Part shown: piece after piece, positions 59,880 to 64,000 of the stretch
Layout of the letters: each line of letters starts with the position of its first letter
How positions within the stretch are numbered: position 1 is the first letter of the stretch
Source of the DNA: Phycisphaerales bacterium
GTDB lineage: Bacteria; Planctomycetota; Phycisphaerae; Tepidisphaerales; Tepidisphaeraceae
Assembly (NCBI GenBank): GCA_020853095.1
Contig: JADYZN010000050.1
Location: 1 to 64,000 of the forward strand
Length of the DNA: 64,000 nt
Reading direction: 5' to 3'
Made by a program: the position numbers and the translations under genes
The notes under the pieces: model-generated
Told to the model about the DNA's origin: nothing
What the model saw: the letters and a program-made list of their open reading frames with translations, nothing else
Databases searched by the model: none

Positions 59880-61868
59880 ATGTTTCTCCAGTCGGGAGAG
59901 CTTGCATTGGATACCGTTGACGTTGCCGCAGGCCCGCCGCAGGTTGCGATGCGCGGTTCATCCATCATGATGAAGCGCCCCGCGCCGTGGGGTCCGCATC
60001 GTCAGCATTTGCCCATTGTCGAGCTTCGCGGGGTGCAATTTCACGCGATCACCGAGCCGCAGTGCATCGAATACATTCTGAATGAATTGAGAGGCGGCCG
60101 GGGCGGGGTGGTGATGACGCCGAATCTGGATCATCTGCGTCGATGCGGCGTGGACATGAGTTATCGGGCGTTGGTGGCGGAGGCGGACCTGGTGGTGGCC
60201 GATGGGATGCCGCTGGTCTGGGCCAGCCGATTGCAGGGGACGCCTTTGCCGCAACGGGTGGCGGGATCGGATTTAATCTCCAGCCTGAGCAAGGCGGCGG
60301 CCACCGAGGGGCGATCGCTGTTTTTGCTGGGTGGCGCGCCCGGATCGGCCGAGGGGGCCGCCAAAGTGTTGCGCGAGCGATTTCCAGGCGTGAAAATCGC
60401 GGGAATTCATTGTCCGCCGATGGGGTTCGAGGATGATGAACGGCAGATGGCGGCGGTGGTCGAGGCGTTGGAACAAGCCCGGCCGGACATCGTATACCTG
60501 GGGCTGGGGTCGCCCAAGCAGGAAAAGCTCATCCAACGGGTGCGGCGATACGTTCCCGGCGCGTGGTGGCTGGGGTTGGGGATCAGCTTCAGTTTTCTGT
60601 GTGGCGAAGTGCAACGCGCGCCCCGGTGGATTCAAAGGCTGGGGCTGGAATGGGTGCATCGGCTGGTGCAGGAACCCAAGCGGCTGTTCAAGCGGTACAT
60701 CGTGCATGGGATTCCGTTTGCGGGTCGATTGCTGGGGCGCAGCGCGTTATCGGGCCTGGCGGTGAAGCTGCATCTTCGGCGCGTCTCGGCGCAGGGGTCG
60801 AGCCTGTTGGAGACTTTTAGTGATCAGGATTTGGATTTATTGATTGCATCGGAACGGATGAAGAGTACAACCGGCGTTGCGTCGTCGCGGGTTGAACCTG
60901 TAATTGAGCGGCCAAAGCCTGCGGGAGAAGTTCGGAACCGGGTAATGACAGCTTCGGCGGATATCAAAACAGGACGGCTGGGGCGGTTGCGGGCGCTGGT
61001 GCTGCTGGGCGGGTCGGTTCGGCCGACGCCGCTGACCACGAACAGCGGGCGGTCGATTCTGGACCTTCCGGTGGATGATACCGGTTCGATCCTGAACCAT
61101 TGGGCACGTCACGCGGCCGAGTTATCGGCCGGTGCGGGGGTTGCGGATTTGCCGGTGCGGGTGCTGGTGAACCAGGGTTCATCGGACCTGGTGTCGATGG
61201 CGGGCGGGAATTTGCCCAATTTGCGAATTGAGCGGGATTTTGCGGAATACCGTGGAACCGGGGGCGTATTGGGCGATCTCGCCAAGGATTATGAAGATCA
61301 GGATTTGATCCTGGTGGCCAATGCCGCGCAATTGCTGATGGATGGATTGTATCCGTTGGCGCAGGCGCTGGATGAATCGGGCGGGCAGGTGAGCCTGATG
61401 GCACATCAGGATGGAACGCCCAGCGGGATGATGCTGATAACGTGTGGAGCTTTGCGGCTTATTCCGAGGTCCGGTTTCGTCGATATGAAAGAGCAGGCGC
61501 TGCCGGGGATCGCGGGAGAATACGAAGTGACGGTGGTGAACCGCAAGCGGCCGACGGGCCTGCCGATCCGATCGCTGACGGAATACATCGCGGCGTTGCG
61601 GCAGTATCACCGCAGGCGACTGGGCAAGCCGGCGATCAGCGATCCGCTGGCCGAGGAGTGGCGGCCGACGTTTTCGATCGTGGAGGAAGGGGCGCAGGTG
61701 GATGGGATGGCACGGGTTCATGATGCGGTGGTGCTGAAAGGCGCCCGCGTCGAGGCGGGAGCGGTGTTGGTGAGGTCGGTGGTGTGCGGGGATGCGGTGG
61801 TTCGGCGGGACCGGACGGCGGTGGACCGGATCGTGGCGGCGAACGATGGGATAAGACGGCGCGGATGA
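59880..61868 (+). CDS. WecG/TagA/CpsF glycosyltransferase fused to a degenerate nucleotidyltransferase-like domain
   Basis: A 662-residue two-domain protein. Residues 45-280 are GT26: VVMTPNLDHLRR, then VVADGMPLVWASRLQG, then RVAGSDLI, FLLGGAPGSAEGA and YLGLGSPKQEKLI, which in TagA/WecG transfer ManNAc-type sugars to undecaprenyl-linked acceptors. From 370, RALVLLGGSVRPTPLT and SILDLPVDD recall sugar-1-phosphate nucleotidyltransferases, ending with a left-handed-helix-like GARVEAGAVLVRSVVCGDAV. The GxGTRLxP signature and its lysine are missing, so that half is probably non-catalytic. Downstream exosortase genes follow with ATGA overlap. Confidence 0.82.
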   Translation: MFLQSGELALDTVDVAAGPPQVAMRGSSIMMKRPAPWGPHRQHLPIVELRGVQFHAITEPQCIEYILNELRGGRGGVVMTPNLDHLRRCGVDMSYRALVAEADLVVADGMPLVWASRLQGTPLPQRVAGSDLISSLSKAAATEGRSLFLLGGAPGSAEGAAKVLRERFPGVKIAGIHCPPMGFEDDERQMAAVVEALEQARPDIVYLGLGSPKQEKLIQRVRRYVPGAWWLGLGISFSFLCGEVQRAPRWIQRLGLEWVHRLVQEPKRLFKRYIVHGIPFAGRLLGRSALSGLAVKLHLRRVSAQGSSLLETFSDQDLDLLIASERMKSTTGVASSRVEPVIERPKPAGEVRNRVMTASADIKTGRLGRLRALVLLGGSVRPTPLTTNSGRSILDLPVDDTGSILNHWARHAAELSAGAGVADLPVRVLVNQGSSDLVSMAGGNLPNLRIERDFAEYRGTGGVLGDLAKDYEDQDLILVANAAQLLMDGLYPLAQALDESGGQVSLMAHQDGTPSGMMLITCGALRLIPRSGFVDMKEQALPGIAGEYEVTVVNRKRPTGLPIRSLTEYIAALRQYHRRRLGKPAISDPLAEEWRPTFSIVEEGAQVDGMARVHDAVVLKGARVEAGAVLVRSVVCGDAVVRRDRTAVDRIVAANDGIRRRG

Positions 61869-62836
61869 CGATACAGTCGATCAATGGCGAGCGATGGAAG
61901 CCGTGGCACTTTGTGGCCGCGGTCGCTTTGGCCGCGCTGGGCGTGTGGGTCACGTTTGATGCGTGGGCGGACATTTTCCGCATCGCGGCCAACGACGAGG
62001 AATACAGTCATATTTTCATCGTGCCGGTGGTGGCGGGCTGGTTGATCTGGGTTCGTCGGGCGCGGCTGAGACATTGCCGGCCGTCGTTTACGATTCTCGG
62101 TCCGATCCTGGTGGCGATCGGGTGGATGTGTTCTTATTACGGCTTTTATCGGCTGGGGCCGGCGAAAATCGCCCTGCTGGACTGGCCGGCGCGGGGGATG
62201 TTCTGGGCGATGTGGGGGGTGCTGAAGGCATTGCATCTGGACATGGCCGGGCAGGTGTTGTGGCACAGCGGCGCGGTGCTGGTGGTGCTGGGATGCGTGC
62301 TGTCGGTGTTGGGAAAGAGCGTGCTGTTCCGGTTTTTTCCGGCGATCGCGGTGCTGGTGTTTTTGATCCCGGTGCCGGGGATGCTGCGGCAGAAGATCGC
62401 GATTCCGCTCCAGTCCTATACGGCACAGATCAGCGAGTGGCTTCTGGTGTTGTTCGGGGTGGACGTGGAGCGGTCGGGCAACATGCTGTCGATCAACGGC
62501 CGGCCGGTGACGATCGCCGAGGCGTGCAACGGGATTCGGATGGTGTTCGCGCTGATCCTGGTGGTGTACGCCTTCGCGTTTGGAATGCCCTTGCGCAATT
62601 CGGTGCGGCTGCTGGTCCTGGCGATCAGCCCGATCGCGGCGATCGCGTGCAACGTGCCGAGGATCTTGGCCACGGCGATGGTGTACGGGTATTTCACGCC
62701 GCAGACGGGCCAGATGTTCCACGATTACAGCGGGTGGCTGATGCTGCCGATCGCGTTTTTGATGTTGTACGGAATCATCTGGATTTTGAAATGGGCGATG
62801 ATCCCGGTGACGAAATACACGCTGGCATCGCAATGA
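61865..62836 (+). CDS. Exosortase (EpsH/Xrt family)
   Basis: A 323-residue membrane protein with about eight helices. The transpeptidase-like triad can be seen: Cys221 in IAEACNGIRM, Arg266 in CNVPRILA, and His286 in MFHDYSGWL. Exosortases process PEP-CTERM-type proteins and often accompany exopolysaccharide genes. The start overlaps the GT26 stop by 4 bp (ATGA). EpsI follows 18 bp later, which matches the exosortase-EpsI pairing. Confidence 0.93.
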   Translation: MTIQSINGERWKPWHFVAAVALAALGVWVTFDAWADIFRIAANDEEYSHIFIVPVVAGWLIWVRRARLRHCRPSFTILGPILVAIGWMCSYYGFYRLGPAKIALLDWPARGMFWAMWGVLKALHLDMAGQVLWHSGAVLVVLGCVLSVLGKSVLFRFFPAIAVLVFLIPVPGMLRQKIAIPLQSYTAQISEWLLVLFGVDVERSGNMLSINGRPVTIAEACNGIRMVFALILVVYAFAFGMPLRNSVRLLVLAISPIAAIACNVPRILATAMVYGYFTPQTGQMFHDYSGWLMLPIAFLMLYGIIWILKWAMIPVTKYTLASQ

Positions 62837-62854: not shown

Positions 62855-63550
62855 ATGAACATCCGGATTCGCAAAGTTCTGATGGTGATGACGGCCCCGC
62901 TGGTGACGGCGGCGTTGCTGGGCGGCATGGCCATGGAGAACAGCACGCACATCAAGCCGCAAAACGTCGAGGCGTTTCACGACGAGGCGAAGGCGGCGCT
63001 GGATGAGGTTCCGTACGTCATCGGGTCGTGGGTGGGCAAGGATGAGGCGGTTCCGACCGAGGCGGTGAAGCTGCTTCGGCCCAACCGGATCATCAGCCGG
63101 ACGTACGTGGACGTGGCGGATGTGAATCGGCGGGCGAGCCTGTTGATCGTGCAGTGCCGCGATTCGCGGGACATGATGGGGCATTATCCGCCGATCTGCT
63201 ATCCGGGGCAGGGCGAGGTGTTGATCTCATCCCGAAAGCGCGACTGGAAGGCGGGGGACATGACGATTCCGGGGATGGAATACCTTTTTGAGCGTCGCGG
63301 GCACGAATTTACGACCCAGCGGTACGTTTATGACTTCATGATCGTGCCGGGCGTGCCGATTATTCGGGATATGGACGGCGTTTTTCGCGCCGCGGAAGAT
63401 TATCAGCGGCGTTATTTTGGCGCTGCGCAGTTTCAAGTGGTGATGACGGGTGATTTGAGCGAAGCCGATCGCGACGAGATTTTCAACGTGTTGATCGGCG
63501 CCAACACCAAAACAATCCGTTTACTGATGAACGGAGGGATAACGAAATGA
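62855..63550 (+). CDS. epsI: Exosortase-associated protein EpsI
   Basis: 231 residues with an N-terminal signal/anchor (MNIRIRKVLMVMTAPLVTAALLGG) and the DUF3485/EpsI domain: the family's conserved histidine-cysteine segment is MMGHYPPICYPGQGE, and GSWVGKDEAVPTEAVKLL starts the domain. It is thought to work with exosortase in exopolysaccharide or protein export. The stop overlaps the next start (ATGA). Confidence 0.88.
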   Translation: MNIRIRKVLMVMTAPLVTAALLGGMAMENSTHIKPQNVEAFHDEAKAALDEVPYVIGSWVGKDEAVPTEAVKLLRPNRIISRTYVDVADVNRRASLLIVQCRDSRDMMGHYPPICYPGQGEVLISSRKRDWKAGDMTIPGMEYLFERRGHEFTTQRYVYDFMIVPGVPIIRDMDGVFRAAEDYQRRYFGAAQFQVVMTGDLSEADRDEIFNVLIGANTKTIRLLMNGGITK

Positions 63551-64000
63551 ACGAGCAACCCCCCCAAAGTCCGCTGGCGATGCCCAATCGCAACCTGGGT
63601 CCGGCGACCGATCTGTGGCAGACGCAGCTTGACCTGAGCGGCCAGCCGCAGGCGCAGCAGCAGCAACAACAACAGCCCCTGCGCAAACTGCATCGGTTGC
63701 TGCGCGGGCGATATCTTGTGGCGCTGGGTCTGGCGTTGGTGTGCGCGGTTGGCGGCGGGCTGGCGGGGTACATGAGCCAGAAGCCGCGCTTCCAGAGCCG
63801 CGGATACATCGAAATCAAGCCGTTTTTGTCCAGCATCGGCGAGGCGCCGGTGGTGATGCCCATGTACCAGGCGTACATGGAGACGCAGGTGACGAGGTTG
63901 CAGGATCAGCGCGTGATCCAGCGGGCGATGTCCAGCGACAAATGGCGTTCGCTGGGTCGCGGGATGAGCGATGCCGAATTCCGTGCTTTCATCGAAAACC
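63547..64000 (+). CDS. Wzz/GumC-type polysaccharide chain-length protein (cut by window end)
   Basis: The first 151 residues are visible. A cytoplasmic N-terminus includes a run of seven glutamines interrupted by one alanine (QAQQQQQQQP), then PLRKLHRLLRGRYLVALGLALVCAVGGGLAGYM, the first transmembrane helix, followed by FQSRGYIEIKP and the periplasmic helix. This is the start typical of Wzz/GumC or tyrosine-autokinase proteins that set polysaccharide length. It completes the operon of glycosyltransferase, exosortase and EpsI within this window. Whether a kinase domain follows cannot be seen. Confidence 0.75.
   Translation, partial: MNEQPPQSPLAMPNRNLGPATDLWQTQLDLSGQPQAQQQQQQQPLRKLHRLLRGRYLVALGLALVCAVGGGLAGYMSQKPRFQSRGYIEIKPFLSSIGEAPVVMPMYQAYMETQVTRLQDQRVIQRAMSSDKWRSLGRGMSDAEFRAFIEN

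Follow-up and report, generated by a model that had tools for sequence, protein, structure and literature searches.

A pseudo-nucleotidyltransferase domain fused to glycan-assembly and sorting enzymes in Planctomycetota

Gene clusters of Planctomycetota that combine glycan assembly with exosortases encode a family of degenerate sugar-nucleotidyltransferase-like domains, here termed PNT (pseudo-nucleotidyltransferase). In different planctomycetes the domain is fused to one or another of three membrane enzymes from a single glycan and sorting cluster, which suggests that it holds or controls those enzymes. The member described here forms the C-terminal ~296 residues of a protein with an N-terminal GT26 glycosyltransferase, encoded in a 64,000-nucleotide stretch of a Phycisphaerales bacterium (the window; Table 1). 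It was compared with mostly draft, multi-contig assemblies, and the searches around the window covered Planctomycetota genomes.

Table 1. Features of the PNT-bearing gene, its product and its downstream neighbours in the window.
Feature	Position	Strand	Basis or remark
GT26-PNT fusion protein, 662 aa	59880..61868	+	one open frame; same architecture in relatives
GT26 (WecG/TagA/CpsF) domain, residues 41-300	60000..60779	+	PF03808 E 2.3e-60; PDB TagA 7mpk E 7.8e-36
VVADGMP, Asp counterpart of TagA Asp65 (catalytic base)	60192..60212	+	7mpk alignment
Arg-rich C-terminal appendage of GT26	60645..60725	+	sequence; compared with TagA (PMC6493773)
Linker, residues 301-366, weakly conserved	60780..60977	+	dN/dS 0.27 vs 0.05 and 0.07 in flanking domains
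PNT domain, residues 367-662	60978..61865	+	hhalign 97.0% to catalytic NTases, 99.8% to bridge family
GGSVRPTPL, degenerate GxGTR loop	61008..61034	+	alignment
GRSILDLP, Arg at catalytic Lys position (residue 391)	61047..61070	+	alignment
LVANAAQ, position of NGD metal-binding Asp (lost)	61311..61331	+	lost in 50/50
VDMKEQALP, family motif D-x-K-E-Q	61479..61505	+	alignment of 50 members
TGLPIRSLTEY, position of WxDIGTPEDY Asp (lost)	61554..61586	+	lost in 50/50
Short left-handed beta-helix-like end	61671..61814	+	weak PF24894 and PF25084 matches, residues 599-645
Exosortase; ATG overlaps PNT stop (ATGA)	61865..62836	+	PF09721 E 1e-49; longer frame from 61784
EpsI-like protein (DUF3485)	62855..63550	+	PF11984 E 6e-10
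Wzz/tyrosine-kinase-like gene, runs past window end	63547..64000	+	767 aa in L128 with AAA_31

The fusion protein and its two halves

The frame is unbroken over 662 codons, and the joined GT26-PNT architecture recurs in a protein of locus L001 (92% identical to the window protein) and, throughout the order to which the window belongs, in open frames of 645-1118 aa. Since the same long frame is found in L001 and in many genomes of the order, the joint is not a frame error, and a misread frame joining two genes, considered in the original prediction, is ruled out. Between the window and L001, dN/dS is low in GT26 (0.053) and PNT (0.073) and higher in the linker (0.27). PNT is thus under purifying selection, kept for some function, and not a relic. 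The missing Pfam nucleotidyltransferase match and the failed catalytic motifs would suit a decaying relic or two genes joined by an assembly artefact, but the low dN/dS, the occurrence of this fusion, with a single origin, in many genera and the open frames in independent assemblies all speak against that reading. Given purifying selection and repeated fusion, this explanation was rejected, its probability being close to nil.

The GT26 half is readily recognised: the PF03808 (WecG/TagA/CpsF) match spans residues 102-273 and reaches 203.7 bits against a curated cut-off of 27.4. GT26 enzymes transfer the second sugar, and priming is not their step. The 'priming or early glycosyltransferase' proposed originally needs correcting in this respect: priming belongs to a Bac_transf gene four genes downstream. 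In TagA, Asp65 acts as the catalytic base, Gln/Glu lie in the pocket, and an Arg-rich appendage serves as a membrane and active-site element (PMC6493773). Alignment to TagA reveals equivalents of Asp65 (VADGMP) and Gln167 (SPKQEK) as well as the appendage (EPKRLFKRY) in the window protein. Because these elements are retained, the GT26 half is probably an active second-sugar transferase. It shares active-site residues and the C-terminal appendage with the TagA/WecG/CpsF enzymes, yet TagA lacks the C-terminal nucleotidyltransferase-like domain.

The origin of the PNT half is less easily seen. Its predicted ALVLLGG start is present (residues 372-378); the left-handed-helix-like end, also predicted, gives weak left-handed beta-helix (LbH)/hexapeptide matches at residues 599-645 and is short in the window protein. 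No Pfam nucleotidyltransferase (NTase) model matched the C-terminal half, either in the window protein or in any of 27 homologs; only weak LbH/hexapeptide hits came up, and both Pfam and NCBIfam models miss the NTase-like core of the window protein. A direct phmmer search of the PDB with the domain returned chance matches only, hhalign of the window family against RmlA/ManC-type NTases from the same genomes alone was not significant, and single-sequence AlphaFold2 gave an unusable model of the domain (mean pLDDT 34.8).

The connection is made by a bridging group (L086-L090) from the phylum genome search, whose proteins match the window family (E down to 1.5e-11) and also exceed the PF00483 cut-off. 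In hhalign, the window family scored 97.0% directly against catalytic NTases (255 columns) and 99.8% against the bridge, the bridge scored 100% against catalytic NTases, and the control against GT26 gave 0.3%; these probabilities are single comparisons rather than database E-values, and the catalytic set consists of other NTases of the phylum, partly found via the bridge profile, and is not an independent sample. Judged by these profiles, PNT descends from LbH-bearing sugar-1-phosphate NTases. Common ancestry and domain order link it to the PF00483 NTases with LbH, i.e. GlmU-type, RmlA-long and mannose-1-phosphate guanylyltransferases; unlike these catalytic proteins, PNT has none of the catalytic residues, save possibly one Arg.

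Motifs were counted in an alignment of 50 sampled PNT members and nine catalytic NTases. The GxG(T/S)R loop has lost the third position of GxG in most members, and its Arg is possibly retained (GGSVR) in 37 of the 50. The lysine column of PKP holds Arg in 45 and Lys in none, compared with Lys in 9/9 catalytic NTases. The original prediction of a missing GTR and lysine is thus right for the lysine, replaced by the Arg of GRS at residue 391, and for GxG-T; the Arg of GTR, by contrast, is plausibly kept as GGSVRP. The decisive losses were not on that list: both metal-binding Asp (NGD and DIG) are gone in 50/50 members, and the EKP segment is ~27 residues shorter (a median of 33 vs 60 residues between flanking columns), its lysine column being a gap in 42 members and Lys in only two. 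With the Asp, the Lys and the EKP segment lost, sequence rules out, as far as it can, catalysis by the customary metal-dependent mechanism; binding of a nucleotide or sugar phosphate is compatible with the same losses. The domain's status as a pseudo-enzyme is therefore well supported, and the degenerate, non-catalytic NTase that was originally proposed is borne out by profile comparison and catalytic-column losses alike.

In place of D-M-T-x, PNT members carry D-x-K-E-Q (K in 49/50, E in 50/50), a motif found in 0/9 catalytic NTases. Together with the conserved arginines, this motif might form a rebuilt active site for another reaction on sugar phosphates or lipid-linked sugars. The near-invariance of the motif, the strong constraint on the domain and the arginines conserved at the old Arg and Lys positions would all fit such an enzyme; both metal-binding Asp are nevertheless lost throughout and the EKP segment is deleted, and the conserved residues could equally serve binding, so we regard this possibility as quite unlikely.

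The cassette and the fusion partners of PNT

In the window, the PNT-bearing gene is translationally coupled to the exosortase by the ATGA at 61865. Beyond the window, the Wzz/kinase gene is followed by a priming transferase (PF02397, Bac_transf) and then a TPR protein. The latter (1430 aa; L128 10241-14533, G000:C50) resembles the TPR gene of PEP-CTERM loci.

Across 39 PNT loci, the exosortase is fused to PNT in five and lies ≤500 bp downstream of it in 24 (29/39 together); a Wzz/kinase gene follows in 33; 34 have the priming transferase fused to PNT or nearby; and GT26 is fused in nine and nearby in 11. None of 36 control loci of catalytic NTases had any such cassette neighbour within 1.5 kb. 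PNT hence belongs to a cassette of GT26, PNT, exosortase, EpsI, Wzz/kinase and priming sugar transferase. The exosortase locus of the original prediction is confirmed by the PF09721 protein beside EpsI, Wzz/kinase and priming transferase, and the cassette is conserved. Several PNT loci (L143, L144, L145 and L157) have no exosortase nearby, which makes it a frequent but dispensable rather than obligatory partner; the constant partners are glycan-initiation and export genes.

At the genome level, at least two exosortase matches were found in 45/47 PNT-bearing genomes vs 1/11 genomes without PNT (gene fragments counted once), a contrast that is descriptive since related genomes are not independent. 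PNT-negative genomes usually retain a single exosortase. The window genome has a second exosortase (G000:C67:36677-37468) and a single PNT match, the one in the window. In two cassettes that contain PNT, the priming transferase (PF02397) itself carries a hexapeptide/LbH stretch before its catalytic domain (L130 5018-6625 and L138 7688-9451, both on the minus strand).

PNT was found in 27 of the 61 genomes searched (the window's and 60 relatives), in 23/26 genomes of the window's order (three being without it) and, in a phylum-wide sample of 294 genomes, in members of several further families and classes. Its partners vary. The GT26-PNT fusion occurs in the window and its order, and GT26 and PNT are separate tandem genes in L136, L145, L149, L150 and L165. 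Frames of 636-701 aa join PNT to an exosortase (L086, L088-L090, L103-L106), L107 and L108 fuse it to the priming transferase, and L154 and L155 show a GT2-GT26-PNT arrangement. In the tree, a branch with support 98/93 separates all PNTs from the sampled catalytic NTases, a grouping that holds against the nine catalytic sequences of the outgroup rather than against all NTases. Each fusion type needs one origin, that of GT26-PNT lying inside the window's order. The original prediction had left to be checked whether the fusion is conserved beside exosortase genes; the cassette is conserved, but fusion to GT26 is just one arrangement of several, PNT being joined elsewhere to the exosortase or the priming transferase.

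The GT2-GT26-PNT proteins have 1073-1110 aa (L155 821-4150, G016:C95; L154 6522-9740). The GT26 part of the L155 protein is degenerate too: its catalytic Asp is replaced (VAGGLP) and the EP..KRY appendage is lost, which makes it, by these residues, a second pseudo-enzyme within one chain. Genome G008 has two similar standalone PNT genes (L151 3266-4309 and L150 7781-8731), the second copy with GT26 upstream and no exosortase found on the contig.

LbH domains commonly oligomerise. This property, and a partner that differs between lineages, would suit a purely structural role for PNT, as a spacer or oligomeriser whose pocket is empty and binds no ligand. However, conservation peaks in the NTase-like core loops and D-x-K-E-Q and not just in the beta-helix, and we consider such a ligand-free role quite unlikely.

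Proposed function and an allosteric alternative

The function of PNT is inferred from genomic association, and the allosteric or scaffold role of the original prediction stays a proposal. To the reading that it is a non-catalytic, probably ligand-sensing LbH scaffold organising or gating early polyprenyl-linked glycan assembly in exosortase cassettes, we give about an even chance. PNT would be placed on the cytoplasmic membrane face, where it would oligomerise through its beta-helix and hold or gate the enzymes that begin polyprenyl-linked glycan assembly. It would probably bind a nucleotide sugar or sugar phosphate without turnover, and glycan initiation—as well as exosortase action where an exosortase is present—would thereby track precursor supply. 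The partners of PNT differ, but all of them work at the membrane, either in the initial steps of polyprenyl-linked glycan assembly or in sorting, which fits a non-catalytic gathering or gating module.

NTase-fold pseudo-enzymes are known regulators and scaffolds in eukaryotes. GMPPA, for instance, has no catalytic activity of its own; it binds GDP-mannose and inhibits its paralogue GMPPB (PMC11228364). Alternatively, then, PNT could be an allosteric subunit of a catalytic NTase, as GMPPA is of GMPPB, that tunes nucleotide-sugar supply for GT26. Besides the precedent, the weak match of the LbH end of PNT to GMPPA (7d72) and the six catalytic NTases in the window genome are compatible with this alternative. 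A same-strand catalytic NTase within 8 kb was, however, found in only 3/39 PNT loci (a partner could be encoded elsewhere in the genome), and no fusion of PNT to a catalytic NTase was seen; we rate an allosteric subunit of a catalytic NTase as unlikely. GMPPA and PNT resemble each other: each is non-catalytic, has the NTase fold (predicted from profiles in PNT) and an LbH end, and belongs to a context of sugar activation. They differ in that GMPPA partners a catalytic NTase, while PNT adjoins, or is joined to, membrane enzymes of glycan assembly and sorting and lacks the EKP segment.

Another parallel to the proposed scaffold is found in eIF2B, of which a subcomplex of the gamma and epsilon subunits binds GTP (PMC8633983). 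Here too, NTase-like and LbH modules are re-used as binding or scaffold parts, but eIF2B is a eukaryotic translation factor without a glycan or membrane partner.

Novelty and meaning for exosortase loci

Neither the NTase fold nor the concept of a regulatory pseudo-NTase is new. What seems not to have been described before is the bacterial PNT family, with its motif and with the fusions that link it to exosortase, GT26 and priming transferase: in the literature searched, which left most subscription journals outside, no paper linked exosortase and nucleotidyltransferase in a way relevant to PNT. Since Pfam and NCBIfam models miss its NTase-like core, PNT is likely unannotated in many genomes.

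Co-occurrence had already tied exosortases to exopolysaccharide loci in 2006 (Haft 2006, PMC1569441). Like the PNT cassette, the PEP-CTERM/exosortase loci described there place the exosortase near glycosyltransferases and other exopolysaccharide genes; a nucleotidyltransferase-like protein is absent from that text, and the exosortase fusions it reports are to CAAX-protease-like domains. The fusion of PNT to three members of one cassette provides Rosetta-stone evidence that those enzymes work together, and the fusions offer a concrete protein with which to test the exosortase-exopolysaccharide link. In a more far-reaching and doubtful version of the scaffold proposal, PNT could be a shared ligand-sensing hub that joins priming transferase, GT26 and exosortase in one membrane complex, so that surface proteins would be sorted and anchored in step with glycan precursor supply. 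If true, such a hub would give a direct molecular reason for the presence of exosortases in exopolysaccharide loci.
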